Source: Candidatus Thorarchaeota archaeon AB_25
GTDB lineage: Archaea; Asgardarchaeota; Thorarchaeia; Thorarchaeales; Thorarchaeaceae
Assembly: GCA_001940705.1 (NCBI GenBank)
Contig: MEHG01000006.1
Span: 1-46,908, forward strand
Direction of reading: 5' to 3'
DNA: 46,908 nt
Below are positions 15,001 to 30,019 of this stretch, piece after piece. The notes under the pieces were generated by a model. The model was not told the DNA's origin. It saw only the letters and a program-made list of their open reading frames with translations, and did no database searches. The position numbers and the translations under genes are program-made. Position 1 is the first letter of the stretch. Every line of letters begins with the position of its first letter.

Positions 15001-15877
15001 GGTGTATGAAACTGACCCACTTGAGGAAGACAGCGACGGCGACACCATCAATGACCATGACGAGGTCTTCGGTGTGAATCCTCTGGGAATTGCGACAAAC
15101 CCACTGGAGGATGACGGGGACTTTGATGGACTCAATGACTATGAAGAACTCTTCACCTATGGTTCTAATCCTGCATCTCCAGACGGAGACTCAGATGGCC
15201 TCAGCGACTTCCTGGAGGTCACGGAGTATTCCACCCAACCGATGAACAATGACACGGACTCGGATATGCTCTCTGATGGTGCAGAGGTCAATGTCTATGG
15301 GACAAACCCACTACTGGAAGACACCGATGGTGACGGCATAAATGACTACAGGGAGGTCATAGTACTGGGTACTGACCCGAACAGAAGAGACAGTGACGGG
15401 GATGGCATAATGGATGGCCAAGACTTCCTACCGACGATTCACTGGATATTCCCGATAGCGGGACTCCTCGTGCTGGCGTTCGTGGGTGCAGTGGGCGTGA
15501 AACGGTTCAGAGACACCCACATGGGGGATGAGTTCGTGACCAAGGCAGAGCCTGCGAGCCTGGGCTTAGAGCCTGGCATGGACATTGCGGTGGAATACAA
15601 GATCCGGGACGGGCGCGTCATCTTCGGAGTGGTGGTGCGGAACGGTGCTGACAACCCGATGCAGAACGTGCAGGTGACACTGGGCGTACCGGACCTGACT
15701 GATACAATAAAGACAGAGAACCTAGGCACAGTGGATCCGGACACAGTATCAGTGGCTGAGATTGAGTTTGAGCTGCAGCCTGGTGCAGAGGGTGAGCTCG
15801 TAGGTATGATTGAGTATGACAGCATCGAGGGTGAGCACAAGGTAGTGAACCTGAAGCCCGTGAAGATTGTAGCTTAG
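9056..15877 (+). CDS. Giant surface protein: propeller head, calcium-binding TSP3-like repeats, membrane anchor
   Basis: The 2273-residue protein begins with a signal peptide (VIIALLVVCALAGL). Residues of about 50-400 form FG-GAP-like propeller blades with repeated D-x-D-x-D-x-x-E loops (for example NFDADGLEEVVVG). From about 402 to 2128 it is almost entirely a DSDGDGLSDGxE...YGTDPLxxDTD repeat, thrombospondin type 3-like, each unit carrying Asp-rich calcium loops. A membrane helix lies at about 2129-2150 (WIFPIAGLLVLAFVGAVGV), followed by a basic stop-transfer and a roughly 120-residue cytoplasmic beta-sandwich-like domain. Its ATG overlaps the stop of the ATPase gene, and AGGAGG precedes it. 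By family knowledge such repeats make stiff, calcium-stabilised rods, so an adhesin, receptor or stalk is likely. The tail suggests it communicates with the cell interior. Confidence 0.9.
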   Translation: MKTYHVIIALLVVCALAGLQLQTTDTGVQPVAITSPQVQQVPHSIAEIAPFDTAIVWSTTVGNQVVDVVVDNFDADVRDEVAVIVQNGSLFLFDDDSSLLWKLKLGSTPHALASFDGTAATGQEMLIGTDSGIVVVGANKAVQMNMSLPEPVYAVAGGNFDADGLEEVVVGCDDFYVYAFEIDTTPEWSYLSNGRVRLLDVADIDSDSRAEVVVASEGRRFTLLQDTGAMLFEKTSATAINVVAMGDLTAAANWDILYGSSNGTLAVWYDTGTLAYGLDLEDSVTSLEVGNLVTGGRHEFALGTDANQLRVYDSGGALLWNKTLGGVPNEILFPNVGATTNAQVLVGIPNTLNTYNATGWRVNQLTANGFTGALAFGDLDNFGGDEYAFGTNFGVVSSYGRDFDKDQLADAREIIIEGTLYDDSDSDNDNLSDGQEVLTYDTNPLAADTDGDKLSDFAEVITHGTDPNEADSDSDNLTDWQEIYLGTNPNQADTDGDSLTDYEENNVTLTLPTDPDSDSDDINDAQDDNDGDGLTNIQEVRLSKTDPNDVDSDGDLITDYYDDQDADNLANWKEIQVGTGLYDPDSDDDLLLDGYEVKTSKTSPLNEDTDGDSLTDFEEVMIVHSDPLKADGDEDGLSDYDEYVIYGTGVLDSDSDDDTLSDGAEVNTYFTDPLNNDTDSDLISDGLEVKVWKSDPNSADTDLDNLNDYLECYVWHTNVTNSDTDGDTLGDGLEVLTYGTNASLVDTDFDLIRDPDEVKYLSSGWDPTNPNTFDAGTLDGNWDFDGDRLTNYQEIYLTRTNPTLMDSGGLPLTDDLEDSDLDGLNNYDELYVTFTHPRRPDTDEDKVKDGDEVLILLTDPNDEDSNDNGITDYDEDFDDDGLSNGIELYITQTLHNDSDTDNDLISDYYDDEDGDSLENWFEVEMTGTDPLYNDTNDNGVFDWEEDPDNDELTNLEEQENDCDPLAADTDLDQLTDGEEVLYTHTDPTDSDDDDDGLLDGQDDQDNDGLTNLEELRTYDTNVTLWDTDGDRIRDGLEIDVGLNATNPDSDDDGLFDGWNDIVPNGIYEPHLGERGEDVNANGVVNVGETSPFEKDSDFDGLDDAEEYVYGTSPINEDCDEDGLLDGEEINDYFTNPLNNDTDSDLLSDWVEVEQTLTDPNNMWYNGTHTDYMIDSDGDSLTNGDEVYIYETDPGDFDSDNDNIGDGMEVLVYLSDPLSNDSDGDGLLDNEELFYGTEINIQDTDGDQLDDFVEIEYLGTNPLLPSTYMNGTLDGNLDHDGDGLTNAVEIYGYHSNATSKDSDLDGLEDGFEVFVSGTSPTDMDSDNDQLSDYDEYWIYHTDPSGSDSDSDGLSDYVEVYVSLTSPTSWDSDGDTLSDGDEWNTYGTNPNSIDTDDDLLSDKLELDIGTDPLLNDTDSDTLSDWEEWVLYDTDPTEADIDEDGLNDAEELENGTDWENWDSDFDTISDGDEVNIYETSPINDDTDSDNLADGDELFNSGTDPLLVDTDGDTIPDDLDDQDADGLTNADEIYLYETNCTLIDTDFDMLSDFDEIFVWDTSPKLFDSDEDGLGDWDELFYWSSDPNDRDSDDDGLEDSEEALTWHTLLNSTDTDMDGVSDYDEIKVFETDALHWDTDSDSISDGDELYVYNTSPLRKDTDSDKLLDGQEINGFYMTFNISGVIDSRWVYTNPRVSDTDRDTLSDFEEVNRTGTDPTLFSTQGNTISDADWDIDNDMLTNAQEIRLTKTNPRIYDSDSDGKSDGADDEDRDLLTNYWECVLTETDPRDPDSDDNGISDYNDDEDGDTLSNGEECKDYGTDPLERDSDSDGLDDNEEIEVWGTDPLNKDSDFDGLEDGPEVNDWGTMPDSNDTDLDWLSDWEEVVLTGTDPTTNMTHPGTLDRLWDSDSDGLTNWDELRVYFTLPNDPDFDNDDLIDGLEISLGTQINGVDSDSDLLTDGQEYLLYGTDPLLPDSDGDELSDYDEVMVYETDPLEEDSDGDTINDHDEVFGVNPLGIATNPLEDDGDFDGLNDYEELFTYGSNPASPDGDSDGLSDFLEVTEYSTQPMNNDTDSDMLSDGAEVNVYGTNPLLEDTDGDGINDYREVIVLGTDPNRRDSDGDGIMDGQDFLPTIHWIFPIAGLLVLAFVGAVGVKRFRDTHMGDEFVTKAEPASLGLEPGMDIAVEYKIRDGRVIFGVVVRNGADNPMQNVQVTLGVPDLTDTIKTENLGTVDPDTVSVAEIEFELQPGAEGELVGMIEYDSIEGEHKVVNLKPVKIVA
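10259..15420 (+). repeat. Long in-gene array of Asp-rich TSP3-like coding repeats
   Basis: Over about 5.1 kb the reading frame repeats a unit of mostly 19-27 codons with consensus D(S/T)D-x-DxLSDxxEV-x-x-YGT-DP-x-x-xD. The DNA copies have diverged, with different codons for the same residues, so the array is conserved at protein level and is not a recent nucleotide expansion. Shorter variants such as DDDGDGLTN interrupt the register at intervals. Long open frames on the opposite strand here are by-products of the biased codons and are not genes. Confidence 0.88.
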
Positions 15878-16790: not shown

Positions 16791-17993
16791 CTAGACTTCT
16801 CTAGTATCAGTGGTGTATGCACCCACTGACCGTGCAATCTCTTGGACCTCATTTGGGTGACCGAATAGAGCGCAGGGAGTGTCCTCGTTGGTGAGGAGGT
16901 GCTCATTCTGACGAATGGCTTCGAATAACGGACTTGCTAGCCCCTCTCTGAAGGAGGTATTGGAGAGATTGTGAGTTGCCAAATTAGATACTGGACAAGC
17001 CGTGAGGTCTCCCGAGGGAGTGACATGTGCGAATCCACGACCAGCAGAAACGCAACCGCCAAAATAGTCCTCATCTCCGGGCGAATGGATGACGTACAAT
17101 TTGTTACGTCGACGATATTCGAGGACTCTCGAACGAAACTCTTCACGCTCGGCAGGAGAAAGCATGAGCGTCTTATCATAGGATCCACAGGTGTCGCCAG
17201 TGAGGTTCTCGGCCATCACAGGGATGTATTCGATGAAGACACCCACAAGGATGCCGAGTTTGACATAGTGGTCTAAGTTCTTTTTCTGCATCCAGAATCT
17301 ATAGTTCTCATTAGTGATCGTAACGGAGATGCCGGTTGGGACACCACTGGACTTCAATCGTGTCAGGGTCTCAAGAGCTTGTTTGTGAACACCTTGTCCT
17401 CGACGGGAGTCAGTTGTTTCTTCACTACCCTCGACACTGACAATAACTGCCACATTCTTAGTGCTGCGTAGGCGCTTATGGTCAGTGCGAGTAAGTGCAG
17501 TACCATTGGTCAGGATGATAAAGAACCGGTCATTGAAGGACTCACATAACTCGAGCAAGCCACGGAACATGAAAGGCTCGCCTCCAGCTATGATGAAACC
17601 AAAAACACCCAGTTCACTTGCATCCTTGATGATGTCATACCACTGCGCCCAGTCAAGGGTCTTTCTCGCATCAGAACACTCAGTCCGTGGTCTGTTATCA
17701 AGTGTCCCTACTGCAGCAGCATAACATCCTGCGCAGCTAAGGTTGCATTGAGAGGTGATACTTAGGATCAGAAAGGGAGGTACTCTCAGTCCAGCCTCTT
17801 TGGCCTCACGTCTGAGCTTCTCGGTCTTCTTGTAGGACCGTGCGAGTCTAATACCTGCCCGGATATATCGGGGATTACGAAGCACCCAGGGAACGAAGAG
17901 GCGGGACATGTTAGGATCGAGTCCATCAAGGACCTTCTTCATCTGTCCTGGTGACTTAATTCTATTAGCGTGCTCTTTGACTGTTGTTAACAT
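16791..17993 (-). CDS. Radical SAM protein with C-terminal Cys-rich SPASM-like region
   Basis: The 400-residue protein carries the radical SAM cluster motif CNLSCAGC (CxxxCxxC) near residue 97, followed by a GGEPF motif and a SAM-barrel pattern (VAVIVSVEG, GISVTITNEN). The C-terminus has further Cys residues (FGGC, LTACPVS, TPCALFG) like a shortened SPASM/auxiliary cluster region, so it probably modifies a peptide or other large substrate. The ATG at 17993 is preferred. A strong minus-strand TATA (TTTATATAG, near 18044-18052) predicts a transcript starting around 18020, so the ATG at 18038 would lie upstream of it. It is divergent from a flavodoxin, a plausible electron donor, across a shared operator array. 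Its substrate is unknown. Confidence 0.85.
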   Translation of the reverse strand: MLTTVKEHANRIKSPGQMKKVLDGLDPNMSRLFVPWVLRNPRYIRAGIRLARSYKKTEKLRREAKEAGLRVPPFLILSITSQCNLSCAGCYAAAVGTLDNRPRTECSDARKTLDWAQWYDIIKDASELGVFGFIIAGGEPFMFRGLLELCESFNDRFFIILTNGTALTRTDHKRLRSTKNVAVIVSVEGSEETTDSRRGQGVHKQALETLTRLKSSGVPTGISVTITNENYRFWMQKKNLDHYVKLGILVGVFIEYIPVMAENLTGDTCGSYDKTLMLSPAEREEFRSRVLEYRRRNKLYVIHSPGDEDYFGGCVSAGRGFAHVTPSGDLTACPVSNLATHNLSNTSFREGLASPLFEAIRQNEHLLTNEDTPCALFGHPNEVQEIARSVGAYTTDTREV

Positions 17994-18041
17994 CTTACTT
18001 TCCCAACTTGGTAGCGGCGCGTATGTTATACTACACATCAA

Positions 18042-18108
18042 ATCTATATAAAATGTTTGGTCAAAGCCAAACGTTACGACTGTGCCAAACGTTTAAATAT
18101 CTTCAAAC
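18042..18108. promoter_or_regulatory. Divergent promoter with GTTTGG/CCAAAC operator array
   Basis: Between the radical SAM gene and the flavodoxin gene lie GTTTGG at 18055-18060, CCAAAC at 18067-18072, CCAAAC at 18085-18090 and CAAAC at 18104-18108. The first pair forms an inverted repeat with a six-base spacer, and the CCAAAC copies are 18 bp apart. On the minus strand the array lies directly upstream of TTTATATAG. On the plus strand the copy at 18085 runs into TTTAAATAT (18092-18100), the likely TATA of the flavodoxin gene. The same arrangement recurs at 28984-29100. Confidence 0.7.
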
Positions 18109-18165
18109 TAAAAGATAGGGTAGCCACCGCCTATGAATTTTGAAACATAGGGGAGTTGGAAGATA

Positions 18166-18660
18166 ATGAAGAAAGTACTAATCATATATGACACGCAGTT
18201 TGGAAACACTAGAAAACTTGCCCTAGAGATTGTCAAAGGAATCCAAGAGAACGAGAACATCACCTGTAAGGTCGAAAACGGGGATGGTATAGAAACAGAA
18301 GACCTCTCAAAATACGATGCGGTCATCTTTGGGGGTCCTACCCGGGCTTTCAGAGCAACACGTGGTGCCATGGATGCCATCAAGCGAGCAGGACAGATTG
18401 GACTTGATGGTAAGGTAGTAACCACATTTGGCACATATATGATGGGCAAGCAATCAAGGGGTGTCAAAGGCATGGACAAGAAATTGAGTAAGTCCGCACC
18501 TGGTGCAATACAGATTCGTCCTGGTTTCTCAGCAAAGGTTGACAGTGTTCGTGGTCCCATAAGTGAAGAAGAGATTCCAAGGGCACATGAATTTGGAAGG
18601 AAACTGAGTCAAGAGATTCTTCAGCACACTTCACCGACAGTAGAAGTGCCTTCAGCATAG
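18166..18660 (+). CDS. Flavodoxin family protein
   Basis: A 164-residue flavodoxin-like protein. It opens with beta strand MKKVLIIYD and the FMN phosphate-binding loop TQFGNTRKLA (about residues 10-19), followed by the flavin-contacting segment FGGPTRAF (about 56-63) and a third strand VVTTFGTYMMG. It is a single-domain short-chain electron carrier acting in the cytoplasm. The ATG is preceded by GGGGAG at suitable spacing. It is divergent from a radical SAM gene and shares its operator array. Since radical SAM enzymes need a low-potential electron, a donor-acceptor pair is a reasonable inference. A flavodoxin-domain oxidoreductase with another partner is the alternative. Confidence 0.9.
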   Translation: MKKVLIIYDTQFGNTRKLALEIVKGIQENENITCKVENGDGIETEDLSKYDAVIFGGPTRAFRATRGAMDAIKRAGQIGLDGKVVTTFGTYMMGKQSRGVKGMDKKLSKSAPGAIQIRPGFSAKVDSVRGPISEEEIPRAHEFGRKLSQEILQHTSPTVEVPSA

Positions 18661-18709
18661 TTCCAGGAATCGCATTACTTAAGGGGCGGAACCACTCGTC
18701 TAGTGGACT

Positions 18710-19396
18710 ATGTCACTAGAAATCTATAGTGCGGTCTTCTGGGTCGTTGCAATAGTTTCGACGTACCTTCAGGATAAATCTTCAGCAGGAGTAAAGAAGG
18801 TAGCATCACCGACCACCATAATCAAAATGATTCCAGCATTGAGTGCTGTTGTATTTGTCCTCCTCTTTAGACCTCCAACGCTGTTCACAATCCTATTGGC
18901 AGCAGCATTGGTGTTCTGTATGTTTGGTGATGTTGGGATGGAGGTAGACCTCGTTCCGGGCATAGGTATGTTTCTCATAGCCCACATTCTCTATACTACC
19001 AACTTCCTTTGGCAGGCGAGTGTAGTGGGACTGACATTAATCCCCCTTGCAGTGTTCGCTGGCTGTCTGGTTGTGGGAGTTGTGTATGTCTTCATGCTGA
19101 TTAGATACCTTCGCGCCTCAGGTCCCGAGATACCACCATTTATACTACGGGCTGGGACTCTGTACTTTCTCATAATAGCAGCAACACTGAGCACATCTCT
19201 GCTTCTCTGGCAAACCTCGGGAGTTCTTCTAGGATACTTGCCCGTAATAGGAGCATTGTTCTTCATAATCTCGGATTCCTTCATCGGAATAAATGAGTTT
19301 CATCACAAATTGGGACGCCATGAGTTCTACATTATGCCAACATACTATCTGGCAATCTTCCTACTCTCCCTTGGTGTGTTTGTATTTGCATTCTAG
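18710..19396 (+). CDS. YhhN (TMEM86-like) family membrane protein, possible lysoplasmalogenase
   Basis: A 228-residue polytopic protein with about eight hydrophobic segments. Family hallmarks visible are the conserved Lys-Met-Ile-Pro region after the first helix, FGDVGME in place of the family's GD motif (about residues 73-79), an H-x-x-Y in IAHILYT, and a late ISDSFIGINEF segment. Members in animals hydrolyse the vinyl ether bond of lysoplasmalogens; whether archaeal members act on ether lipids in the same way is unknown. There is no Shine-Dalgarno, but TTACTTAAG lies about 30 bases before the ATG, so the mRNA is probably leaderless. Short inverted repeats surround the start (18692-18719). 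Confidence 0.75.
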   Translation: MSLEIYSAVFWVVAIVSTYLQDKSSAGVKKVASPTTIIKMIPALSAVVFVLLFRPPTLFTILLAAALVFCMFGDVGMEVDLVPGIGMFLIAHILYTTNFLWQASVVGLTLIPLAVFAGCLVVGVVYVFMLIRYLRASGPEIPPFILRAGTLYFLIIAATLSTSLLLWQTSGVLLGYLPVIGALFFIISDSFIGINEFHHKLGRHEFYIMPTYYLAIFLLSLGVFVFAF

Positions 19397-19432
19397 GAGA
19401 ACTAGAGTTACAAAGTTTGATAAGAAGAGAGG

Positions 19433-19449
19433 CCCTCACAGGCTGAGGG
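19433..19449 (+). promoter_or_regulatory. Hairpin covering the ribosome-binding site of the TPR gene
   Basis: CCCTCA (19433-19438) and TGAGGG (19444-19449) can pair around a five-base CAGGC loop. The 3' arm contains the GAGGGG that serves as Shine-Dalgarno for the GTG at 19457. No T-run follows, so a terminator for the preceding gene is unlikely and a translational effect is more plausible. Confidence 0.4.
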
Positions 19450-19456
19450 GACGTGC

Positions 19457-20713
19457 GTGAATAAAGAAGAGCTGCTGGAAGCAATCGATGCCAAGCTGGA
19501 TCAGCTGAATCCTGCAGAGCTGATTGAGCCAGAGAGCATCTATCCAGTGGCGATTATGACCCGGGAAAGAAGGCAGCTAGGTGAGCTCGAGAAGGAATTG
19601 CTCCAGACCCTTGAACTGATAAAATTAGACGAGAGAGTCCCGAGCATCATCACACGACTGGCAAATGTCTATCTCAAAGAGGCCACCTTTGGTCGAGCCA
19701 TTGTCCTATACGAGTTGACGTTGGGCTTGGATAGTAATCAAGTGAGTGCATGGATAAACATGGGACTAGCATATCTGATGGTGTCAAGCCCTAAGGAAGC
19801 CATCAGTTGTCTTGGCAGTGCTCTAGCAATAGACCAAAGAAATTCTCTTGCATTAGTTTACCTTGCAATGAGCCAGCTCAAATTGGGAGAACTTGATGAG
19901 GCAAACACCAATCTGGATCGGGCTATATTCGTGGACTCCAATATGGCTAGGGCATTGCTCGGAAAAGGTGAACTCTTTCGGGCAAAGGGAGAGCTTGAGG
20001 TTGCAGTGACGTGGTTACGACGTGCTCTTTCCATGAATCCCAACTTCTTCCCAGCACTTATGGAGCTGGGAAATGTCTATCTTGCCCTCAAGAAGTATGA
20101 ACAGGCCAATGATGTTCTGACCAAAGCTCTGGTGATTAATCCTGAACAAGCATACGCACTCTCTACTATGGGAGACATTCACGCTGCACAGAACGACCTC
20201 GAGTCTGCTCTATACTATTATGACAAGGCAGTGAGTATCAAGTTTGATGACCCAGACCTGTGGATAAAGAAGGGGGATATTCACAAGTCTTTGAAATCTT
20301 ACCAACAAGCGTCCAACGCGTATCAGAAGGCAATCAATGCCAATCCGGAGCATGTTGAGTCTTGGGTCAAGAATGGCACTGTAATGCTGCTTCTTGATGA
20401 TGAGGGAACTGCTCTAGAGTATCTCAACACTGCACTTGCTCTAGAACCAAAGAATGCCGACGTTGCTCATCAGAGAGGTCTGATCTACTACTCTTTAGAA
20501 CGACATCAGGAGGCTCTGGATGATTTTGACGCGGCGTTCTCTGTAGACCCAGGAAATCCAATGTATCTCTATTATCGTGCACTCCTACTTGAGATTCTAG
20601 ATAGGAAAGATGAGGCGAAACGAACCTGGCAGGTAGCCCTCAGTCTCTTCAAAGAGATGGGTGATGAGATGAAGGTAGCGGAGTGCTCTGCCAGACTGAA
20701 ACGCATTGGATGA
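19457..20713 (+). CDS. Tetratricopeptide repeat protein
   Basis: A 418-residue soluble protein. After a roughly 45-residue helical N-terminus (MNKEELLEAIDAKLDQ) it consists of about ten TPR units, recognisable by A/G at position 8 and A at 20, as in NMGLAYLMVSSPKEAISCLGSAL and ELGNVYLALKKYEQANDVLTKAL. TPR arrays are protein-interaction scaffolds, and no catalytic domain is attached. The start is a GTG at 19457 with GAGGGG six bases upstream; that ribosome site can be paired in a hairpin. The gene ends four bases from the convergent GNAT fusion gene. Its partner is unknown. Confidence 0.88.
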   Translation: MNKEELLEAIDAKLDQLNPAELIEPESIYPVAIMTRERRQLGELEKELLQTLELIKLDERVPSIITRLANVYLKEATFGRAIVLYELTLGLDSNQVSAWINMGLAYLMVSSPKEAISCLGSALAIDQRNSLALVYLAMSQLKLGELDEANTNLDRAIFVDSNMARALLGKGELFRAKGELEVAVTWLRRALSMNPNFFPALMELGNVYLALKKYEQANDVLTKALVINPEQAYALSTMGDIHAAQNDLESALYYYDKAVSIKFDDPDLWIKKGDIHKSLKSYQQASNAYQKAINANPEHVESWVKNGTVMLLLDDEGTALEYLNTALALEPKNADVAHQRGLIYYSLERHQEALDDFDAAFSVDPGNPMYLYYRALLLEILDRKDEAKRTWQVALSLFKEMGDEMKVAECSARLKRIG

Positions 20714-20717
20714 ACTA

Positions 20718-23700
20718 CTACTCTATCACTTCAGGTAGGTCCTTCAACAGTTCAACCGTGTCGACATTTTGGGCAATCACTATGTAGCTGTTCATACTCG
20801 TACTCTCGCCAGGCTTCAGAGCACGTCTTTCACGAATTCCAAAATTCTGTGCTTTCTCACCAAGAGTATCGAGATAGAGGAGATTATCCCACTTGTAGGC
20901 AGTGATGATGCCTAGAACAGTGCCATCAGATGCGCTCTCATAAGCACCCCATCCCTCTTTACCAGCAAATAGTTCAGCTTCCTGTGAGGTCGGCTCGTAG
21001 ACAATTCGTTTGCCGTCGCGAGTTGTATGGATTGTGTCCAAAACCTCACCATCAGGGGAGGGGATTCCTCTGTAGCCTACAGCAGGTCTCTTCCACTGGC
21101 TACTACTGTTGAGTGTAGTGAATTCCACACTCATGAGCGGAGTTCCAGGTAGAATGAGGTATCGGAAGGAGACTGTGACCCCCTTCAAACCGGGACTATG
21201 CTGAAGTACTGAGGTTGTCTTGTAACCTACCCAAGGTCCAACCCTTTCGTTAGAAATGGTCCAGGACTCCTTATGCAACGCGGATTCCCAGTCCCAGACG
21301 TCAAGATCAGCAATAATCGGGCTAAGACCACTAAACACTTTCTCCCACCAGATGAAAGGACCAACCTTTGGGAAGGTGTCATAGAATACACTTGGCTCAC
21401 CCAATTTATGAAATCTAACCAGCGTGCCAGAATGCTCTGGACAAGCAGCAATTGCATACCCACCCGTACTGAGCGAGTGAAGGGTAGTTTCCTCCTCCTC
21501 AGTCTTTGTTCTCTCAACTTTCAATGCAGATTCATAGACGACAGCTGTCAAAGGGGTCCTGAAGATTCGAGACTTTAACTGTATGACAATTTCACCATTC
21601 TTCCTGAACCAAGATCTATCATTAGTTGTGGTTATCTTTAAGGGGTACGAGAATGGCTTGTCTATCCCTATCTCTTTGACCTGCATCCTTAATTCTTTCT
21701 CACCATTAGCTAGAAGTCCATCCGGCATTTTTAGATGAATGGTAGCATCAACTGGGTCTTCGAATGTGATTCTCAAACGAAGTTCGTGATTGTTTGCCTT
21801 CGACCGGTCAACAATGATTGGATTCGGCACCTTTCTCAGCTGTTTGCTTGATCTAGGAGATATCTCAACCTCAAGATCTGACCGAATGTCATAGACCTCA
21901 GTGACTGGTTCTATGACTCCGTATAACTTTCTGTACAACGACCTAACCTTTCGCCAATCACCATCACCGAGGTAGAGTCTTAGAGGTGTCTTCTCAAATG
22001 ACTCACCGGGAGCAAGTGTTGGAAGACGGTACTCGATTCGTGGAACGGTCATTCCTCTTCGAAGTCTGATTTCTTCAACATGTTCTGGGTCCCAGATATA
22101 ACCTAGAAGAAACCTCTCATGATGGCGATATGAAGCACACCATGTTTCGTGGTAGTCATTAGTCGATTTTGGTATCTGTGGATACCCAGACCAGTCCACA
22201 GACCCAAGGTCATAGAGTTTGCCCCGAAGTGGGATGATTGCGTGGTCGAAGATACCACCAAACCAACCTGCGAGCCGCATGCCAAGATCATTCAAATCCG
22301 AGTCGCCTATGTTCTCATATCTTACAATTACATGAATCAGGTCAATTCCACTCTGGATTCGATAGGTGACATGGTACCGTAACCCAGGACGTTCTGTTGA
22401 ATCGGCGGTCATTCGGACGTCTGCATAATCCCCCCTGCTTTCTAGTTGAATATCTGGTTCCAAACGACCCCACTCACCTCCTTCAGAGGGGAACGGATAA
22501 CCCACCTCCAAGCCCATCACACGCCAACCACCTACTATTCGCGACATTCCTTTGTGCTCAAATCTTGTGAATCCCATAGTGGGTAAATCAAGCATCAAGC
22601 CACGGATGTTCTCTGTTTCAAGGACTATTCTATTGTCCAAACCCCTGTAAGCAACCGCACCGGTTACTCCCAATACGGGAATGTTGAAGTCTTTTCGTTG
22701 AACACAGGTCCGTGTCCCTTCATCTTCCAGATAGATCTCAAGACCAATTGAGAGTATGTCACCCACATCATTTTCAAGTGAGATCATAACAGGTTCTTCC
22801 ACAACCTCTTCCGGTGCAAGATTGAACTCTATCTTTTGGGAATCAACCACTACATCCTTTGGGGGTTTTAATAAAATCTCACCTTTGAGGTCCATTGATG
22901 TGTTATTGAAAACGCCAAGTCCAACAGGTTCTGATCCACCTGGTCTAAAACAAGGATGAAATGGTCCTGCACGTACAATGACGGGAGTTGTTGGGATGAG
23001 TCCGCTATACAGGGAAATCTCTTGGTTTCCGAGTCTGAGCTTCCACTCTACTTGAGTTGGGACTTTCTCATCAGCATTGGTTTCTCGATCAATAGAGCGA
23101 GCACCAGTAGCGATCGAATAGACACCACTGACGTTGATGCTTCCACCTGCTTTTATCAAACCAGAGGAGTCCTCTTTGAGTCGAGCAGAGAAATATTTCG
23201 AAGGATCTAGTTCTATGGAGTAGGATAGGTCATCTTCGGACCCATTTTCGATTTTCAGTTCCACAGGAGATTCCCTAAATCCTATGTAACCAACATGGTT
23301 CTTGGGTTGAACCCTAGCAGAAAGAGTCTGGCCTTCAAATGTCATCCTAAAGGCACAGATGCCCTTTGCTTCTCTATCAACGGTCACGTCAAGAGAATCG
23401 CCACCCTCGCCTTCGAAATGATACTTGAAGACTCCAATGTTGTCCTCCTCGATATCATCAGTTTCCTGTAGAATCTCACGTTTGAAGGAGTCATACCAGT
23501 CATACTTCTCAAAAAAGGGTTGAAACAACTTGTTGCCGAGAATTCCAGGAATGTGTGACTCCATTAAAACTCTGGTTGCTGGAACCCAGTTGTACCCGGT
23601 TCTCTTGTAGAGTGGAAGAGCCTTCAGGTTTCCAGCCCAGGTGTGAAGATCGATGCGGCGTTTTCCAGCCTTTGCGGCAGTTTCTGCAGCCTCAATGAGG

Positions 23701-24023
23701 AGTGCTTTTCCAAAACCTTGCCCTTGATAGTGGGGATTCACACCTAGGAGACCTACATATGCTCCTTCATCATCCCGATTAGAATTACATACGTTGCAGT
23801 AACCTACGACCTTGTCATTTTTGTATGCAACAATCACACGGATGTCCTTGTTCTTCTTACGTCCATCAAAGACTCGCTCCGCTGTTAGGATTCTCCCCTC
23901 ATTGAATCCACCAGGCCAACTGTCTGAGTCGTCAAAGGTGTTGAAACACGCGGCTACTCTAGCGGAGTCTTCCATAGTCAGCTGGAAATCACGTACCTTA
24001 CCTTGTGTATGCTTGTCAGTCAT
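20718..24023 (-). CDS. GNAT N-acetyltransferase fused to a large beta-rich domain
   Basis: Residues of about 10-165 form a GNAT domain with the acetyl-CoA loop QGQGFGKA (about 100-107), preceded by strand VGLLGVNP. The remaining 900 or so residues look like consecutive beta-sandwich domains: an immunoglobulin-like region around 200-450, then a segment with YHVTYRIQSGIDLIHVIVRYENIGDSD and similar strands that recalls galactose-mutarotase-like or glycoside-hydrolase accessory folds. No signal peptide is present, so it is probably cytoplasmic. The length (1101 residues) far exceeds normal GNATs of about 150-180. It may act on a carbohydrate or a glycan-bearing substrate, but that is inference. 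The ATG follows GAGGAGAC at suitable spacing, and a TATA-like TTATTAAC lies further upstream. Confidence 0.82.
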   Translation of the reverse strand: MTDKHTQGKVRDFQLTMEDSARVAACFNTFDDSDSWPGGFNEGRILTAERVFDGRKKNKDIRVIVAYKNDKVVGYCNVCNSNRDDEGAYVGLLGVNPHYQGQGFGKALLIEAAETAAKAGKRRIDLHTWAGNLKALPLYKRTGYNWVPATRVLMESHIPGILGNKLFQPFFEKYDWYDSFKREILQETDDIEEDNIGVFKYHFEGEGGDSLDVTVDREAKGICAFRMTFEGQTLSARVQPKNHVGYIGFRESPVELKIENGSEDDLSYSIELDPSKYFSARLKEDSSGLIKAGGSINVSGVYSIATGARSIDRETNADEKVPTQVEWKLRLGNQEISLYSGLIPTTPVIVRAGPFHPCFRPGGSEPVGLGVFNNTSMDLKGEILLKPPKDVVVDSQKIEFNLAPEEVVEEPVMISLENDVGDILSIGLEIYLEDEGTRTCVQRKDFNIPVLGVTGAVAYRGLDNRIVLETENIRGLMLDLPTMGFTRFEHKGMSRIVGGWRVMGLEVGYPFPSEGGEWGRLEPDIQLESRGDYADVRMTADSTERPGLRYHVTYRIQSGIDLIHVIVRYENIGDSDLNDLGMRLAGWFGGIFDHAIIPLRGKLYDLGSVDWSGYPQIPKSTNDYHETWCASYRHHERFLLGYIWDPEHVEEIRLRRGMTVPRIEYRLPTLAPGESFEKTPLRLYLGDGDWRKVRSLYRKLYGVIEPVTEVYDIRSDLEVEISPRSSKQLRKVPNPIIVDRSKANNHELRLRITFEDPVDATIHLKMPDGLLANGEKELRMQVKEIGIDKPFSYPLKITTTNDRSWFRKNGEIVIQLKSRIFRTPLTAVVYESALKVERTKTEEEETTLHSLSTGGYAIAACPEHSGTLVRFHKLGEPSVFYDTFPKVGPFIWWEKVFSGLSPIIADLDVWDWESALHKESWTISNERVGPWVGYKTTSVLQHSPGLKGVTVSFRYLILPGTPLMSVEFTTLNSSSQWKRPAVGYRGIPSPDGEVLDTIHTTRDGKRIVYEPTSQEAELFAGKEGWGAYESASDGTVLGIITAYKWDNLLYLDTLGEKAQNFGIRERRALKPGESTSMNSYIVIAQNVDTVELLKDLPEVIE

Positions 24024-24114
24024 GGATGTTGTCTCCTCAGAAAGTGTGAATCAACCCGTTTGGATGTTGTTAATAAGGTCTGTGGACTGAGTGATTTTGT
24101 CACTGCGGTTTGTT

Positions 24115-24771
24115 TTATGAACCAGTGTCAATTCCTGATTCTTCAACCTCATTTTCCATTTCTTTCTCTTTCTTCTTCTTATCGTTAAAGTATTTCGTCA
24201 TTTTCTCTTCAATCTTAATTAGGTAGGAAACATCAGAGAACATAGATTGCAGGATATATACGAAAGCCCCGTAAAAAAGGAACATGACGAGTAATTGGAG
24301 AAAGAACATTCCAACTAGAATCATTCCTAATAATTCAAGTAAATCAAGCAAGTCTCCTGAGAATATCAACACAAAGTTGACAATTTGGGTCCATGTAAAC
24401 TGTGTGACCACCACAGCAAGGTAACCTGAGATCAGTTTAGTGATTTGGTGAAGTCGCTGATATTTTAGAAACCTATCAGTTTCAAATTCAGGTATCATTT
24501 GGATTCTGGTTAAATATGGAATGAACTCATCCCGATACCAGTTAATCCCAGTAGTCATATAGTAAAAGCTACCTGCAACTGCAAGCATAATCGGTGTCAC
24601 TACACCGATACCAATACCCCATGAGAACCAACCACCTGACAAGCATAGCACAGAAATGATGACACCGAGTACAACGTGAGCTAGAAAGACCTTGAACTGG
24701 AAGCTATCAGCCACAGGTGGCTTGATCTCGGACCAATCATATTCATTATTTTCACTGTCCAATGAGTCCAC
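24115..24771 (-). CDS. Four-helix membrane protein with charged C-terminal tail
   Basis: A 218-residue protein with a hydrophilic N-terminus (MDSLDSENNEYDW) and four hydrophobic segments at about 28-45, 51-69, 115-136 and 143-172. A roughly 45-residue cytoplasmic tail is dense in Lys and Glu (KKKKEKEMENEVEE) and may form a short coiled coil. I recognise no family. It lies downstream of the methyltransferase gene on the same strand with a 71-base gap, which contains a 15-base motif also found near 25584. Composition resembles its neighbours. Confidence 0.65.
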   Translation of the reverse strand: MDSLDSENNEYDWSEIKPPVADSFQFKVFLAHVVLGVIISVLCLSGGWFSWGIGIGVVTPIMLAVAGSFYYMTTGINWYRDEFIPYLTRIQMIPEFETDRFLKYQRLHQITKLISGYLAVVVTQFTWTQIVNFVLIFSGDLLDLLELLGMILVGMFFLQLLVMFLFYGAFVYILQSMFSDVSYLIKIEEKMTKYFNDKKKKEKEMENEVEESGIDTGS

Positions 24772-24842
24772 GGTTAACCCTCCAAACAGACACTGATTGT
24801 AATTGTGGTAATCCCTCTATTAATTCATTGATGGAAGACTTG

Positions 24843-25442
24843 TTACGGTTTCCCTAATCGTACGTAGAATTGGAAATCGTCAACTTTCTGGTCCAGAATC
24901 TTGAAACCTACCTTCTGAGCTGGTCTGAGGAACATATCAGGCTGCGGATCTCTGACAATACCACCGTATCCAGTCTGATTTTCTGACCCATCTGGAAAGA
25001 GAGTCTTCAGGATGACTACGAACCGTTTCTTCTCCCTCTCTTCAGGGGGTACTTCAAAAATAGCATCCCAGATGAACAATTCTCCACCAGGTTTGAGGAC
25101 TCGCCAAATCTCCTTGAAGATAGCCTCAAAGTCGTCCTCAGGCATGTACATGAAAGTAAAGTAGACAGTGGCTACAGTGAATGACTCGTCGATGAACTTC
25201 AACTCTCTAGCGTCCATGACAACCTTGAGAGCATCGTTTGTTGTTTCTTCAAGTTCATCCTTACGCATATCAATAGCAACGACTTCTTGACCTTTCAGTA
25301 GTCCAATGATACCTTCCCCACCACCGCCCACATCAAGAATCCAACCACCTTTGGGGTCGATGTCTGGGAGAGTGACCTCCTGAGGAGGTAGAACGAAGTA
25401 TTGGCTCCAATCAATATCCGGAGGTGCATTATCATCTGTCAT
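24843..25442 (-). CDS. Class I SAM-dependent methyltransferase
   Basis: A 199-residue single-domain methyltransferase of the methyltransf_11 type. Motif I is GGWILDVGGGGEGIIG (about residues 31-46), the acidic ribose-binding position follows in VVAIDMRKDEL, motif II includes VVMDARELKFIDESF, and the post-motif strand is FTVATVYFTFMYMPEDDFEAIFKEIWRVLKPGG with the usual LKPGGEL turn. The run of four glycines in motif I is richer than the usual GxGxG. Typical substrates in this class are small molecules or lipids; nothing here identifies the target. The ATG at 25442 has no clear Shine-Dalgarno. It is followed by the membrane protein gene at 24115-24771. Confidence 0.85.
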   Translation of the reverse strand: MTDDNAPPDIDWSQYFVLPPQEVTLPDIDPKGGWILDVGGGGEGIIGLLKGQEVVAIDMRKDELEETTNDALKVVMDARELKFIDESFTVATVYFTFMYMPEDDFEAIFKEIWRVLKPGGELFIWDAIFEVPPEEREKKRFVVILKTLFPDGSENQTGYGGIVRDPQPDMFLRPAQKVGFKILDQKVDDFQFYVRLGKP

Positions 25443-25602
25443 GGGGGAAATCTGGTTTTGAATTCAGGCAATAAGTCCACTGGTAAGAGCAGAGGAAGAA
25501 TACCAGATACTACTTGCTCGTTATCACCTGATGAATCCACATCTGACCCTCCAATGATCAAGAGGTTTTTTGGATTTTAGGCCTATTAATTCATTGAGTA
25601 TC

Positions 25603-25636
25603 AAAAAGAAGAGAGAAGAGGGGAAGCCCCCTCTTA
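25603..25636 (-). terminator. Putative terminator of the operon ending at 25644
   Basis: AAGAGGGG (25617-25624) pairs with CCCCCTCTT (25628-25636) around a three-base loop. On the minus strand the hairpin is followed by a T-rich stretch (25603-25607 and nearby), and it starts just after the stop of the TTGG-repeat gene. This fits transcription termination for the operon 28960 to 25644. Confidence 0.55.
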
Positions 25637-25643
25637 GTCGATA

Positions 25644-26396
25644 TTACGTGAAGACAGCTGTGACTCCACCGGTTGTTGTTTCGATAACAACAGTCAGTGT
25701 CTGAGATGCAGTATTATAGTCCGAGCTCTCATAATGGTTCGAAGTGATCGGTATCCAACCAGTTGCGGTGATATCAACACCACCGGTTACAACTGCAGCT
25801 TCCACACTGCCTCCGATTCCGGTCGGAAGATCCACTACAACGCTGATACCACCAGTAGTAGCATCCAAGTCAAAAGTGGCATTTCCTAATAGGACAACAT
25901 CATCGGTCATCGCCAGGGAAATCCCTCCTGTTACAGCAGTGAGTGATACATCACCAACATGTGCACCATCAACCAGTTCAACAGCAATACCACCAGTTGT
26001 AGTATCGACATCCAATGCATAGTTCACACCACTTCCTAGAGTGATATTCACACCAGCAGTGGTATAGGCAAGCCCAATAGTATTACTCGTGAAAGTAACT
26101 GTTGGATCACCATCCCTCTCTAGAGTAGTGTTCTGGACCTCAACATCGATATCGTACAACAGTGTAGCGTTATCGACGAATGTTACTGAAACACCACCTG
26201 TTGTAAGGTCGATGTCCAAGGTCACTGTACCAGTGGTGGCTCCGACTTCTGCATCGAAGTTGAAGTCGGTAGTTGCAGGATTCCAGTTAAACCATGAGGT
26301 GCCCCAGAAGGATAAAGCTCCTACTGCAATGGCACCTACGACTATAACTGCAAATATACACACAACCACGCTTGTGTTTCTTTGATAATTACTCAT
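25644..26396 (-). CDS. Membrane-anchored extracytoplasmic protein with TTGG-type beta repeats
   Basis: A 250-residue protein with one N-terminal hydrophobic helix (about residues 9-33) and a long extracytoplasmic part made of short beta-strand repeats. The motif TTGGI/V-S/A-V recurs at intervals of about 20-35 residues, preceded by a D-x-D or L-D strand, like the strand ladder of DUF4097/adhesin-type beta-helix proteins. It lacks Cys and is very poor in Lys and Arg. The ATG at 26396 is chosen because AGGTG precedes it at correct spacing; a GTG at 26405 is less likely. It starts one base after the stop of the regulator gene and ends the operon before a terminator. In bacteria such proteins often sit beside regulators and phage-shock-type membrane proteins, so an envelope-stress role is a guess. 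Confidence 0.7.
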   Translation of the reverse strand: MSNYQRNTSVVVCIFAVIVVGAIAVGALSFWGTSWFNWNPATTDFNFDAEVGATTGTVTLDIDLTTGGVSVTFVDNATLLYDIDVEVQNTTLERDGDPTVTFTSNTIGLAYTTAGVNITLGSGVNYALDVDTTTGGIAVELVDGAHVGDVSLTAVTGGISLAMTDDVVLLGNATFDLDATTGGISVVVDLPTGIGGSVEAAVVTGGVDITATGWIPITSNHYESSDYNTASQTLTVVIETTTGGVTAVFT

Positions 26397-26397
26397 T

Positions 26398-27024
26398 TCA
26401 TACACCTTTTCTGTGAGCCCTTAGAAATGCGTGCCATTTCTTTCTCAGGTCTCTGTATTGCGAATCTTCTTCCAGAGCAAAGCGACGCATGATTCGCGAC
26501 GCATCGCCTCGTGCCGAGGATGGCATTTTATCAAGATCATCCTCGTTTACGATAAGATTGCGAGAACTAAGTTCATTCTCGCAGCTTATCAACGCCGTCA
26601 GCATTTCCACAGCCTCACCAACCTGATTCTCTGGAACATCTATGCCATAGACTGAGAGGCTTCTAATTATGGACTTCAGGCGTTTTGTAGTATCATCCCC
26701 AGTGGCTTGTACCATTTCACTAATACCCATCCTGTACTCACGGGCAGTTGCACGGTAATACCTCTGGACTATACCTGTCTGGGTCTGTTCTGTTCTTTCT
26801 TCGAAGACAAGACCAACTTCCTTCAACTTCTGAATATGGTGAAGGATAGTTCCAGGGTTCTTGCCTGTCACATCTGAAAGCTGTTTGACTGTCATCGAGT
26901 CTTTCACGAGATAGTCGAACACTATCTTGGCTCGGGTTGGCTCCATGAGTAACTTGATTATTTTCTTGTCTTCGATGACTTCCATATCCTTGATTCGCCG
27001 TTTTCGTTTACTGGAGCCGCTCAT
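26398..27024 (-). CDS. Winged-helix (ArsR-like) transcriptional regulator
   Basis: A 208-residue DNA-binding protein. After a basic start (MSGSSKRKRRIK) comes a winged helix at about 18-95: helix RAKIVFDYLVK, turn SMTVKQLSDVTGKNPGTILHHIQKLKEVGLV (recognition helix about 54-66) and a wing VQRYYRATA. The following 110 residues are helical and may serve in dimerisation or ligand binding. No metal-binding Cys motif of classical ArsR proteins is visible. GGAGG overlapping the preceding stop gives a good ribosome site for the ATG at 27024. Its operon is headed by an array of GTTTGG/CCAAAC sites, so autoregulation through those sites, and control of the matching promoter near 18.05 kb, is the simplest inference. 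Confidence 0.82.
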   Translation of the reverse strand: MSGSSKRKRRIKDMEVIEDKKIIKLLMEPTRAKIVFDYLVKDSMTVKQLSDVTGKNPGTILHHIQKLKEVGLVFEERTEQTQTGIVQRYYRATAREYRMGISEMVQATGDDTTKRLKSIIRSLSVYGIDVPENQVGEAVEMLTALISCENELSSRNLIVNEDDLDKMPSSARGDASRIMRRFALEEDSQYRDLRKKWHAFLRAHRKGV

Positions 27025-27026
27025 TG

Positions 27027-27974
27027 TTACAGTCCTCCTATAAAACTAGGACCAGCCTCATCCTCGTCTTCTTGAAGAATGAGGTCTTCATCCTCAGCTG
27101 TGAGTATCATGTACACTCTTGTGAGACCTATTGATACCGCAGGTAATAGAACGAATGCTAAGATCAGAGCCATTGGGATTGCATATACTCCCATAAACAT
27201 CAAAGCTGGCTCAAAGGTACCCAAAGTGAATGGCACAATTATCAAGGGCACGAGAAGAGCCAAAATGAGTAGAATATATGAGATCCAGACTCCAAACACA
27301 CGGTCAAAATATTGGATTCCCATCCTGATTGACCGTTTCGTTGCTTCAATGACGGAATAACCATCGATTATCGCAGGGAACAGCATTGTCATAAGTCCGG
27401 TACTCAGTGCAAACCAAACTATACCGAGGCCAGAGATTAGCGGATTCATTGTTGTTGTTGATCCGATACCTATGAAAGCAATATTGAGAATCTGCTCTCC
27501 AAAGAGAAATACTGACCCCAAAATTACAAGCATGATAGGTCCCAGGATAAACAGGAATAACATAATTCCTCCACCAGCAAGTGAGAAGAACTTCTTCTTG
27601 TACCAAGTGAAGACTCCCTCTGCGGAAGTTCCTTCACTCTCCACAATCTCACGAGCCATTCCAAAGAGCGCACCAGTAGCTACAAAGAATGGAGCAACAA
27701 ATGGTAGCGCGATAAGGAAGATACCAGTGGCGATTGTCATTCCTCCAGCTGTCGACCATTCATTGAATGTCTCAGCCCAGATCGTGAAAGATTCAAGACC
27801 TCCGGATGACAATAGCATTGGAACGAAGACAAATGCCGCGACTATAGCTATCAATATGATTGTGACTAAGAAGACTCCAATTATCGCAAGCACATAGGAT
27901 ATCACGTTCCTGAGAGCAAACTTAATGCTAATCTTCAGATCGTCAAGAAGTGTTTGAAAGCTCGCGTTTTTCAT
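27027..27974 (-). CDS. Polytopic membrane protein, tandem paralogue 1
   Basis: A 315-residue protein with about six hydrophobic segments. It aligns over its length with the protein encoded just upstream (28052-28960): both begin with a soluble TxLDDxKxSxKxAxxxxxSYxLA segment and share the block QYFDRVFGV after a basic stretch (KRSIRMGIQYFDRVFGV here), followed by a long Leu/Ile-rich helix. The C-terminal tail is acidic (EDEDLILQEDEDE). It resembles DUF6159/DUF4013-type polytopic proteins, of unknown function; that assignment is tentative. The ATG at 27974 follows AGGTG. The gap to the upstream paralogue holds a long hairpin, and the gap to the regulator gene is two bases. Confidence 0.75.
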   Translation of the reverse strand: MKNASFQTLLDDLKISIKFALRNVISYVLAIIGVFLVTIILIAIVAAFVFVPMLLSSGGLESFTIWAETFNEWSTAGGMTIATGIFLIALPFVAPFFVATGALFGMAREIVESEGTSAEGVFTWYKKKFFSLAGGGIMLFLFILGPIMLVILGSVFLFGEQILNIAFIGIGSTTTMNPLISGLGIVWFALSTGLMTMLFPAIIDGYSVIEATKRSIRMGIQYFDRVFGVWISYILLILALLVPLIIVPFTLGTFEPALMFMGVYAIPMALILAFVLLPAVSIGLTRVYMILTAEDEDLILQEDEDEAGPSFIGGL

Positions 27975-28000
27975 TATTTTTCACACCTAGAAAGATAGTA

Positions 28001-28038
28001 GGAGAGTGTCTTGAAAGTTGTCCTTTAAGGCACTCTCC
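28001..28038 (-). promoter_or_regulatory. Long intra-operon hairpin between two paralogous membrane genes
   Basis: GGAGAGTG (28001-28008) pairs with CACTCTCC (28031-28038). The inner arms CTTGAAAG and CTTTAAGG extend the stem around a five-base loop, with one bulge, one mismatch and one wobble. On the minus strand it lies between the stop of the 28052 gene and the ATG at 27974, and is followed by a pyrimidine-rich TACTATCTTTCTAGG. A partial terminator, an RNA processing site or an RNA-stabilising element would all fit. Confidence 0.5.
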
Positions 28039-28051
28039 ATGTTCATAGCAC

Positions 28052-28960
28052 CTACACGATTGGCATATCAACAACACTCTGTGTTGCGATTTCACCACCA
28101 GTGAGTTCCTGGTAGACCTTGACCCAAGCAATCCTTACCATTGGCAAGAATACTAGGAGCCAGAGGAACACCATGATCACTGTGTAAAGCCCCACACCAA
28201 CTAGTGCAGGAATAAAAGCCATCGTGACCGGTGGAACCAACGGTATCATTGCAAAAGCTGCAATGATTATGGGACCGAAGGTGGCGACTAATAGAAGCAC
28301 AATGGCTGTCAAGACACCGAACACACGATCGAAGTATTGGCGGGATAGAGAGAAGGAATCCTTGACCGCGGTCTGAACTCCCTTACCACTAGCAACAGCG
28401 GGCCAGACCAATGAAGTCAGACCAGCGGTTAAGTATACCCACACGAATGTGAATACTGTGAGGAGGTATGTGGGGAGAGCGGTGATGGTATAACCCATCG
28501 CATAGGAAGTGAGTCCCCAGGCGACAACGGGTGGCAGTAAGACTATGATAGTGAGAACTGCACCAGTACTTGCAAAGGATAAGAACTTGTGACGGAAGTA
28601 GGAGAATGCTGCCTCAGCCTTGGTCTCACCCTTGGTGACCAGATCGTGGCTCATTCCGTAGATAGAGCCGCTGACAACCATGAACAATGAGATGACTGGA
28701 ATCAATACCAGAATACCCAAGCCTCCAACAAGGAGAGGGTTAGCGGTGGCCCAGTTAGCCATAGCAGTCATTGTGGCTGCATCGAAAGGTACGAGAAAAG
28801 CCCATGCTACTAGTAGCACAGGGATTGCGACGACTCCAACAAGGAGCGCCATGACAATCAACATGCCTAAGTTCGCCAGGAAGTAGCTAAGCATGCTTTT
28901 CCAAGCGAGTTTGGCGCTTGTCTTCATGTCATCGAGAATGGTTCCGAAAGTTGTTGACAT
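28052..28960 (-). CDS. Polytopic membrane protein, tandem paralogue 2
   Basis: A 302-residue protein with about six hydrophobic segments and the same design as its neighbour: N-terminal TILDDMKTSAKLAWKSML, a hydrophobic pair, a Gly-rich loop with YGMSHDLVTKGETKAEAAF, and the shared block RQYFDRVFGV before a long hydrophobic segment. The paralogue's matching loop reads FGMAREIVESEGTSAEGVF. I place the start at the ATG at 28960 because GGTG precedes it at good spacing; an ATG at 28972 is possible. It is the first gene of a four-gene operon with its paralogue, a winged-helix regulator and a TTGG-repeat protein, and lies directly downstream of the operator array at 28984-29100. Function is unknown. 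Confidence 0.75.
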   Translation of the reverse strand: MSTTFGTILDDMKTSAKLAWKSMLSYFLANLGMLIVMALLVGVVAIPVLLVAWAFLVPFDAATMTAMANWATANPLLVGGLGILVLIPVISLFMVVSGSIYGMSHDLVTKGETKAEAAFSYFRHKFLSFASTGAVLTIIVLLPPVVAWGLTSYAMGYTITALPTYLLTVFTFVWVYLTAGLTSLVWPAVASGKGVQTAVKDSFSLSRQYFDRVFGVLTAIVLLLVATFGPIIIAAFAMIPLVPPVTMAFIPALVGVGLYTVIMVFLWLLVFLPMVRIAWVKVYQELTGGEIATQSVVDMPIV

Positions 28961-28983
28961 TGTATACACCATATTATTATCGG

Positions 28984-29100
28984 CAAACGTTAGGCTTGTT
29001 ATCTACCAAACGTTTGACACATATCAAACTATAACTTATTTCCTTATAAATTGTTTGATGAACGCCAAACGTAACAATAACCATCAAACATTGTATATAA
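28984..29100 (-). promoter_or_regulatory. Promoter with multiple GTTTGG/CAAAC operator sites
   Basis: CAAAC half-sites occur at 28984-28988, 29007-29011 (inside CCAAACGTTTG), 29025-29029, 29066-29070 and 29085-29089, with GTTTG at 29053-29057. Read on the minus strand, GTTTGGCGTTCATCAAAC is followed within two bases by TTTATAAGG, the likely TATA for the 28960 gene. This closely matches the radical SAM promoter, where GTTTGGCTTTGACCAAAC is followed by ATTTTATATAG. Half-site spacing is 18-19 bp in both regions. The downstream half-sites overlap the predicted transcription start. Confidence 0.7.
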
Positions 29101-29119: not shown

Positions 29120-30019
29120 TTACCGGTCTCTAACCATCTGTTTGAACTTCTCACGTCGATAGCTTGAGAAAAACTTGTGATATATGCCAATCAAGACCTT
29201 CACACTGGTCACATGCTCGTTCTGTCTGATCGAACGCACGGTATCAGTGAGGTCAGTGATGTCATTAGCTACTAAGAGAGAGAAGATAACTGGTTCAGAG
29301 GCTGAAACGTAAGTTTCCCAGTGTTTGAGGGGATAGTCTTTGAGTAGCCAATCTGAGATTGTAGAGTATGTAGCGGCCTTCTCATCCCATAAAATTCTAA
29401 CAATGTAGGGCAAGCTCGTAGCAGCCCCAAGTTCAAGTAGCGCTGAAAACCGAAGGGCACCACCTTCCTCAAGCTCACGGATTAGTCGTCTAACTCGTCG
29501 CGCAGTCAATCCGGTTATTTGTGCGATTTCAACAATGGGTAGTTTAGGGTCAGCAAGGAGTGGTTCTAATACTCGTAGATGCGTCTTGGTCATTTTCATC
29601 TCGGATCCCCAGTCTCGAATGAATGTGTGTAACTCGGCTTGCTCAACACTCGCCAGTGTTCGAAGAAATGCCCCAAGTTCCTGTAGTTCCTGCGGACCAT
29701 TATATTCAGCCACGAATGCATATACTCCATTTGAATAAGCAGCAGCAGCGAGGACATGATTGCTTGATCCGATCTCATCGACCATCTCTACCTCATCTCG
29801 AGAACCATCGGTTGATAGAAGACCAAATAATGAGTCAGTCCCGGTCATCGCTGGAGAGAGAGCTATTGAATAGCCGAAAATAACACCAGATTCCTCCAAA
29901 TTCAGAATCCGACGTCGAATTGCATTAGCTGATATGCCGTACTTGCGTGAGAGCTCTTGGTAACTGACCCTACAATTATACTCCAAGTCAGTCAGTATAT
30001 TCCTGTCCAATTCATCCAA
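29120..30019 (-). CDS. Lrp/AsnC-type regulator with two tandem HTH units
   Basis: A 299-residue protein made of two Lrp/AsnC-like halves. The first begins at the N-terminus with LDRNILTDLEYNCRVSYQ and an AsnC-type helix-turn-helix (ELSRKYGISANAIRRRI, about residues 21-37), followed by a beta-alpha segment like the RAM domain. The second helix-turn-helix is at about 159-180 (IVEIAQITGLTARRVRRLI), followed by a second RAM-like part ending VKVLIGIYHKFF. The typical Lrp has one such unit of about 150 residues, so this is a fused dimer. It starts at a TTG at 30019 with no strong Shine-Dalgarno. It lies just upstream of the operator-controlled membrane operon on the same strand, but its target is unknown. 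Confidence 0.85.
   Translation of the reverse strand: MDELDRNILTDLEYNCRVSYQELSRKYGISANAIRRRILNLEESGVIFGYSIALSPAMTGTDSLFGLLSTDGSRDEVEMVDEIGSSNHVLAAAAYSNGVYAFVAEYNGPQELQELGAFLRTLASVEQAELHTFIRDWGSEMKMTKTHLRVLEPLLADPKLPIVEIAQITGLTARRVRRLIRELEEGGALRFSALLELGAATSLPYIVRILWDEKAATYSTISDWLLKDYPLKHWETYVSASEPVIFSLLVANDITDLTDTVRSIRQNEHVTSVKVLIGIYHKFFSSYRREKFKQMVRDR

Follow-up and report, generated by a model that had tools for sequence, protein, structure and literature searches.

A palindromic element, CGTTTG-N8-CAAACG or a near form of it, is the conserved putative operator in the promoter of an operon for membrane proteins and a winged helix-turn-helix (wHTH) regulator wherever that promoter can be read in the archaeal family Thorarchaeaceae. 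In one or more lineages the same predicted operator also fronts a radical S-adenosylmethionine (SAM) gene, radSAM1, with its flavodoxin neighbour, a paralogous membrane-wHTH operon and an FtsX/MacB-type ATP-binding cassette (ABC) operon. Its reader is probably the ArsR-type winged-helix protein wHTH1 (gene at 26398), encoded in an operon that would be under its own control. The window, that is, the whole stretch of DNA analysed, is 46,908 nucleotides of Candidatus Thorarchaeota archaeon AB_25 (contig MEHG01000006.1, C6 in our numbering) and belongs to a 2.86 Mb assembly of 264 contigs that is 85% complete. The nearest named relatives of this assembly are Candidatus Thorarchaeota metagenome-assembled genomes (MAGs), and nearly all the assemblies compared are fragmented MAGs.

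An earlier note on this DNA had described one site at the same register to TATA in two promoters, and both promoters do carry GTTTGG-N7-CAAAC, a gap of 2 bp and TTTATA, so that its "directly upstream" means 2 bp. Read on the minus strand, the radical SAM promoter has GTTTGGCTTTGACCAAAC (operator R1, 18072-18055), then AT, then TTTATATAG (TATA box TTTATA, 18047-18052, minus strand), and the membrane-operon promoter has GTTTGGCGTTCATCAAAC (operator M1, 29070-29053), then AA, then TTTATAAGG (TATA box TTTATA, 29045-29050, minus strand). R1 overlaps the position of the TFB recognition element (BRE) and is the first of an array of three abutting 18-bp sites (18055-18108), the others being R2, an imperfect copy (GTTTGGCACAGTCGTAAC, 18073-18090) that is resembled by a tandem copy at locus L092, and R3 (GTTTAAATATCTTCAAAC on the plus strand, 18091-18108). 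Because R3 holds TTTAAATA (18092-18099), a TATA-like box oriented toward the flavodoxin gene whose L092 equivalent is GTTTAAATTCTTTCAAAT, flavodoxin and radSAM1 probably share this one array, and flavodoxin is a probable member of the regulon. The membrane promoter has a half-site GTTTG 19 bp upstream and, downstream of TATA, an exact copy, M2 (GTTTGATATGTGTCAAAC, 29012-29029), 41 bp past M1, with M3 (GTTTGGTAGATAACAAGC, 28994-29011) abutting it. The earlier mention of half-sites 18-19 bases away described these additional sites only in part. Across 13 orthologous memA promoters of the genus M1, TATA and M2 are conserved and the far-upstream flank is not.

The window contains three occurrences of GTTTG-N8-CAAAC, against a mean of 0.09 and a maximum of 1 in 300 first-order random windows that matched its dinucleotide make-up. 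A loose form with two mismatches is only mildly enriched (25 versus 12), as might be expected if the promoters resembled each other by chance or through common ancestry of their flanking DNA; the exact forms, on the other hand, are strongly enriched and are conserved family-wide at non-homologous genes whose flanks have diverged, and we give that explanation practically no weight.

A scan of the whole assembly for GTTTG-N8-CAAAC-NN-TTTATA gave three exact matches (the two in the window and one at C185:3091) and one match with a single mismatch, while the controls gave 0; the exact matches stand at promoters of related operons. Behind the C185:3091 site lies an operon that codes for a small membrane protein, a memB-like protein and a second winged-helix protein (wHTH2). 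The ends of contigs C185 and C213 overlap by 123 identical bases, and it appears that one gene was cut there by the assembly and that this third operon runs through wHTH2 to a beta-lactamase-fold protein. That protein (PF00144; locus L171 on C213, 582-1817) has similar counterparts beside K-type wHTH operons (defined below) in other genomes. The one-mismatch site, C58:7307, is separated by 72 bp from the FtsX/MacB_PCD permease gene that follows it, and the gene for the permease's ABC ATPase comes next. Several operons of this genome share the operator in their promoters, as would be expected of an archaeal regulon under one wHTH protein. The idea of one regulator and one regulon is well supported by the site at the third and fourth operons; the earlier note missed the larger set, the flavodoxin gene on the array and the age of the operator, which is much older than the genus.

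Site plus TATA, with at most one mismatch, occurs at 42 places in the 47 genomes of the family. All but one of these (41/42) precede genes of class-1 operons (memA-memB-wHTH-LiaF), class-2 operons (small membrane protein-memC-wHTH2), radSAM1 or FtsX-type permeases, the remaining one being in a coding region. Exact matches number 21 in the family and 0 in 72 genomes outside it. When class-1 promoters were instead defined by protein homology, and those with available sequence counted, GTTTG-N8-CAAAC was present at no more than one mismatch in 36/36 and exactly in 31, compared with 1.0% and 0.06% of control windows, respectively. All four close radSAM1 orthologues, the window's included, carry the site, and in genus g3 (L101, L102) radSAM1 opens the memA-memB-wHTH-LiaF operon itself, behind a shared site, which supports the proposal that a single regulator serves both window promoters.

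Which protein reads the operator? The earlier note had favoured wHTH1 (26398-27024, minus strand) and had offered the double Lrp/AsnC-type protein encoded at 29120-30019 (minus strand) as the alternative. Co-occurrence, operator variants that track its paralogues and conservation in other families all speak for the former. wHTH1 is present in 44/47 genomes and 13/13 genera of the family. Three classes of wHTH paralogue can be told apart by the recognition helix, and they go with different operators: class 1 (NPGTILHHI) with CGTTTG-N8-CAAACG in 36/37 cases, two mismatches allowed and the 37th promoter being masked; K-type (KPGT[VI]LHH) with CGTTCC-N8-GGAACG in 11/15, compared with 6/37 for class 1 (Fisher p 1.5e-4); and class 3 (NPGNVLRHI) with CGTTTGC-N7-GCAAACG in 5/6 versus 0/52 (p 1.3e-6), both p-values ignoring shared descent. 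Placed on the tree, the operator label requires 3 changes where the minimum is 2, and 0 of 200 shuffles came that low. Searched genome-wide with one mismatch, CGTTCC-N8-GGAACG occurs at or below the control count, and this variant is defined by its placement before K-type wHTH operons, without enrichment. The class 3 operator directly precedes TTTTTAATA. It belongs to a third paralogous operon, found in genus g1 (L172, L173, L174, L176, L178), which encodes a protein of about 600 amino acids, a memB-like protein and wHTH3; its promoter is near-invariant (CGTTTGCTTTTACCGCAAACGTTTTTAATA) and has another GCAAACG copy past TATA.

The double-Lrp gene adjoins the memA promoter in the window's genus, and arrays of palindromic sites are common targets of Lrp proteins. 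Regulation of both promoters by this protein is nevertheless very unlikely: its homologues (at 1e-20) are absent from operator-bearing genomes of genera g2, g4, g5, g11 and g13, apart from one distant protein in g4; L063 and L075, of the same genus as the window, have no Lrp gene between the upstream neighbour and memA; and the operator variants follow the wHTH paralogues, not Lrp. An Lrp/AsnC regulon, which would have an Lrp-type protein wherever the operator is conserved, was rejected, and we judge the gene to lie outside the regulon. Some Thorarchaeota show a strong expansion of the double-Lrp family itself, G034 having 12 copies, and in other genera the family was undetected.

Several observations weigh against wHTH1 as the single reader of one uniform regulon. 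The class-1 promoters of genus g4 hold CGTTCC-N8-GGAACG, yet no wHTH2/K-type gene was found there, and the match of paralogue to operator is therefore not exclusive; a second reader or a broader specificity of wHTH1 is possible. (The g4 sites, at L105, L107, L109, L111 and L112, lie downstream of TATA.) The L161 promoter is masked and hence fell outside the class-1 test, and two radSAM1 homologues at 53% identity are without the site. Among 27 FtsX-type permease promoters tested, 11 have the site within 220 bp and in at least two others it lies farther upstream; the ABC permease operon is therefore a lineage-variable member that has, to judge from these promoters, joined and left the regulon. 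Upstream of the FtsX/MacB-type permease, several genomes (L083, 1261-1854; L094; the g4 loci) have a conserved gene for a protein of about 200 amino acids with a signal-like start, one C-terminal membrane segment and no Pfam match.

Elsewhere in the phylum, relatives of the wHTH were found in seven genomes that belong to four further families (f7, f13, f18 and f26), the closer ones at 30-36% identity. Each of the four f13 genomes has a single exact CGTTTG-N8-CAAACG, located at a mem-wHTH operon, and the f26 genome has two, one of them at the mem-wHTH locus; an exact search did not find it in the f7 and f18 genomes. The second f26 copy (L295, 1501-1520; G184:C3) lies just before the gene for a 493-amino-acid protein whose N-terminal part includes a hydrophobic stretch; this gene may be a further member of the regulon. 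The f13 operator is the only site there and lies about 38 bp downstream of TATA. In the f13 genome G074 it is followed by genes for a small membrane protein, an ABC ATPase, an FtsX/MacB permease, a mem protein and the wHTH, in that order. Because this layout physically joins genes that are split among operons in the window's genome, it is independent support for the predicted membership of the ABC operon. The pairing of site and protein is, by these matches, traceable into other Asgard families, and the putative operator is much older than the window's genus.

How might wHTH1 act at these sites? A dimer would very probably sit on each palindrome, several abreast where sites are in tandem, and a dimer bound 2 bp before TATA would cover the BRE and exclude TFB/TBP and RNA polymerase. 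At the usual archaeal distance from TATA to start, M2 lies over the memA start point, and M2 is expected to cover the transcription start of the memA promoter. Since the site overlaps BRE/TATA, M2 covers the expected memA start and the f13 site is about 38 bp past TATA, autorepression is the most likely mode of action; through the memA-operon sites wHTH1 would limit its own amount. Activation, in which wHTH1 bound just upstream of TATA would recruit TFB/TBP, would agree with the 2-bp spacing, which is fixed in most promoters, and with the tandem copies upstream in the radSAM1 promoter. It is unlikely in view of the overlap with the BRE, the conserved second site over the expected start and the f13 arrangement, in which protein bound at the only site would block polymerase; in addition, the related Phr (PF1790) of Pyrococcus furiosus, an ArsR-type repressor, binds a site that overlaps the transcription start (PMC6316755). 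The constant spacing to TATA would also suit a core-promoter element, namely an atypical BRE recognised by an alternative TFB. That is extremely unlikely for a palindrome that is found in tandem copies and also downstream of TATA and whose sequence shifts with the class of wHTH encoded. Returning to repression by wHTH1, we speculate that the sensor may be the membrane protein whose gene immediately precedes that of the wHTH, reading the state of the membrane together with the Toastrack-like protein of the operon, and that it could pull the wHTH off DNA, so that membrane or redox stress would induce the set.

PH1932 of Pyrococcus horikoshii (PDB 1ULY, 2CWE), an ArsR-type protein that lacks a metal site, is the only solved relative of wHTH1 that was found; the profile match pairs wHTH1 residues 12-201 with 1uly 3-190 (E 7.7e-18), and the similarity, near full-length, spans the chain beyond the HTH. 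The open-access literature searched yielded neither an operator for PH1932 nor a regulon or membrane partner. The NCBIfam match of wHTH1 to Phr is weak (6.9e-5, 22.5 versus a cut-off of 320 bits), and Phr differs in its motif (TTTA / TGGTAA / AAAA) and its heat-shock targets. Two other assignments were rejected: an ArsR/SmtB metalloregulator (NF033788, 34.8 versus a cut-off of 55 bits; the single Cys, 148, is not conserved) and PadR (13.4 bits versus a gathering score of 27, the best match being HTH_5 of ArsR type, at 1.5e-9).

In bacteria, dyads of HAAS and PadR-like wHTH proteins occur with Toastrack, PspC or FtsX/MacB_PCD domains, and HAAS has been proposed as the sensor partner of PadR (PMC11237479). 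The Thorarchaeota set resembles them in its stand-alone wHTH gene accompanied by a protein with several membrane segments, in its FtsX/MacB permeases and in a putative Toastrack (LiaF-type) protein; it differs in that its wHTH is of ArsR/PH1932 type and its promoter has archaeal TATA/BRE elements. No Pfam match to HAAS (DUF1700/DUF1129) was found in memA, memB or memC, and fold prediction was too poor to decide the matter. The putative LiaF-type C-terminal domain would be a feature in common with LiaFSR of Firmicutes, but the window operon is without histidine kinase or response regulator and has a one-component wHTH in their place. By this comparison the gene set would function much as the Toastrack/HAAS-PadR or Lia sets of bacteria do, yet it is a member of neither.

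We tentatively suggest, at somewhat less than even confidence, that the mem protein and ArsR/PH1932-type wHTH form a one-step membrane-to-DNA signalling pair in Asgard archaea that was duplicated at least twice in Thorarchaeota, with each copy retaining a variant of one ancestral palindrome, and that controls membrane proteins, an FtsX/MacB-type ABC exporter and redox enzymes, as an archaeal counterpart of the bacterial Lia and HAAS-PadR envelope responses that is assembled from different components. It would offer archaea without the bacterial Lia kinase pair a way to respond to membrane state. In the open-access literature searched, no Asgard regulon was found for which an operator is defined and a regulator named. 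The present set supplies a candidate regulator, its putative operator, several predicted targets and naturally occurring paralogues whose operators differ, so that short synthetic DNAs would allow in vitro assays of binding and specificity even though these organisms, known from MAGs, are hard to grow. The three natural helix-operator pairs are also suited to studying how regulator paralogues diverge.

The genes of the two window operons are as follows. radSAM1 (16791-18002, minus strand) encodes a radical SAM/SPASM-like protein (Pfam PF04055, 4.5e-15; NCBIfam matches only below cut-offs), and the flavodoxin gene (18166-18660, plus strand) diverges from it, as does the same neighbour in L092, L101 and L102. 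The membrane operon, on the minus strand, begins with memA (28052-28960), whose product has about six hydrophobic segments and is without a Pfam family, and its paralogue memB (27027-27974), which ends 2 bp before the wHTH1 gene. The last of them encodes a protein with a putative LiaF-like (Toastrack-type) C-terminal domain and one N-terminal membrane segment (25644-26405). PF09922 scores below its gathering score in this protein (1.3e-5, 25.5 versus 29) and is matched by 6/7 of the LiaF-like orthologues, at best with 1.4e-6. Structure predictions were poor, with a predicted local distance difference test (pLDDT) value of 63 for the wHTH and 57 for memA. Elsewhere in the window, 9056-15877 encodes a secreted-type protein of 2273 amino acids with acidic DxDxD repeats like thrombospondin type 3 calcium-binding repeats.

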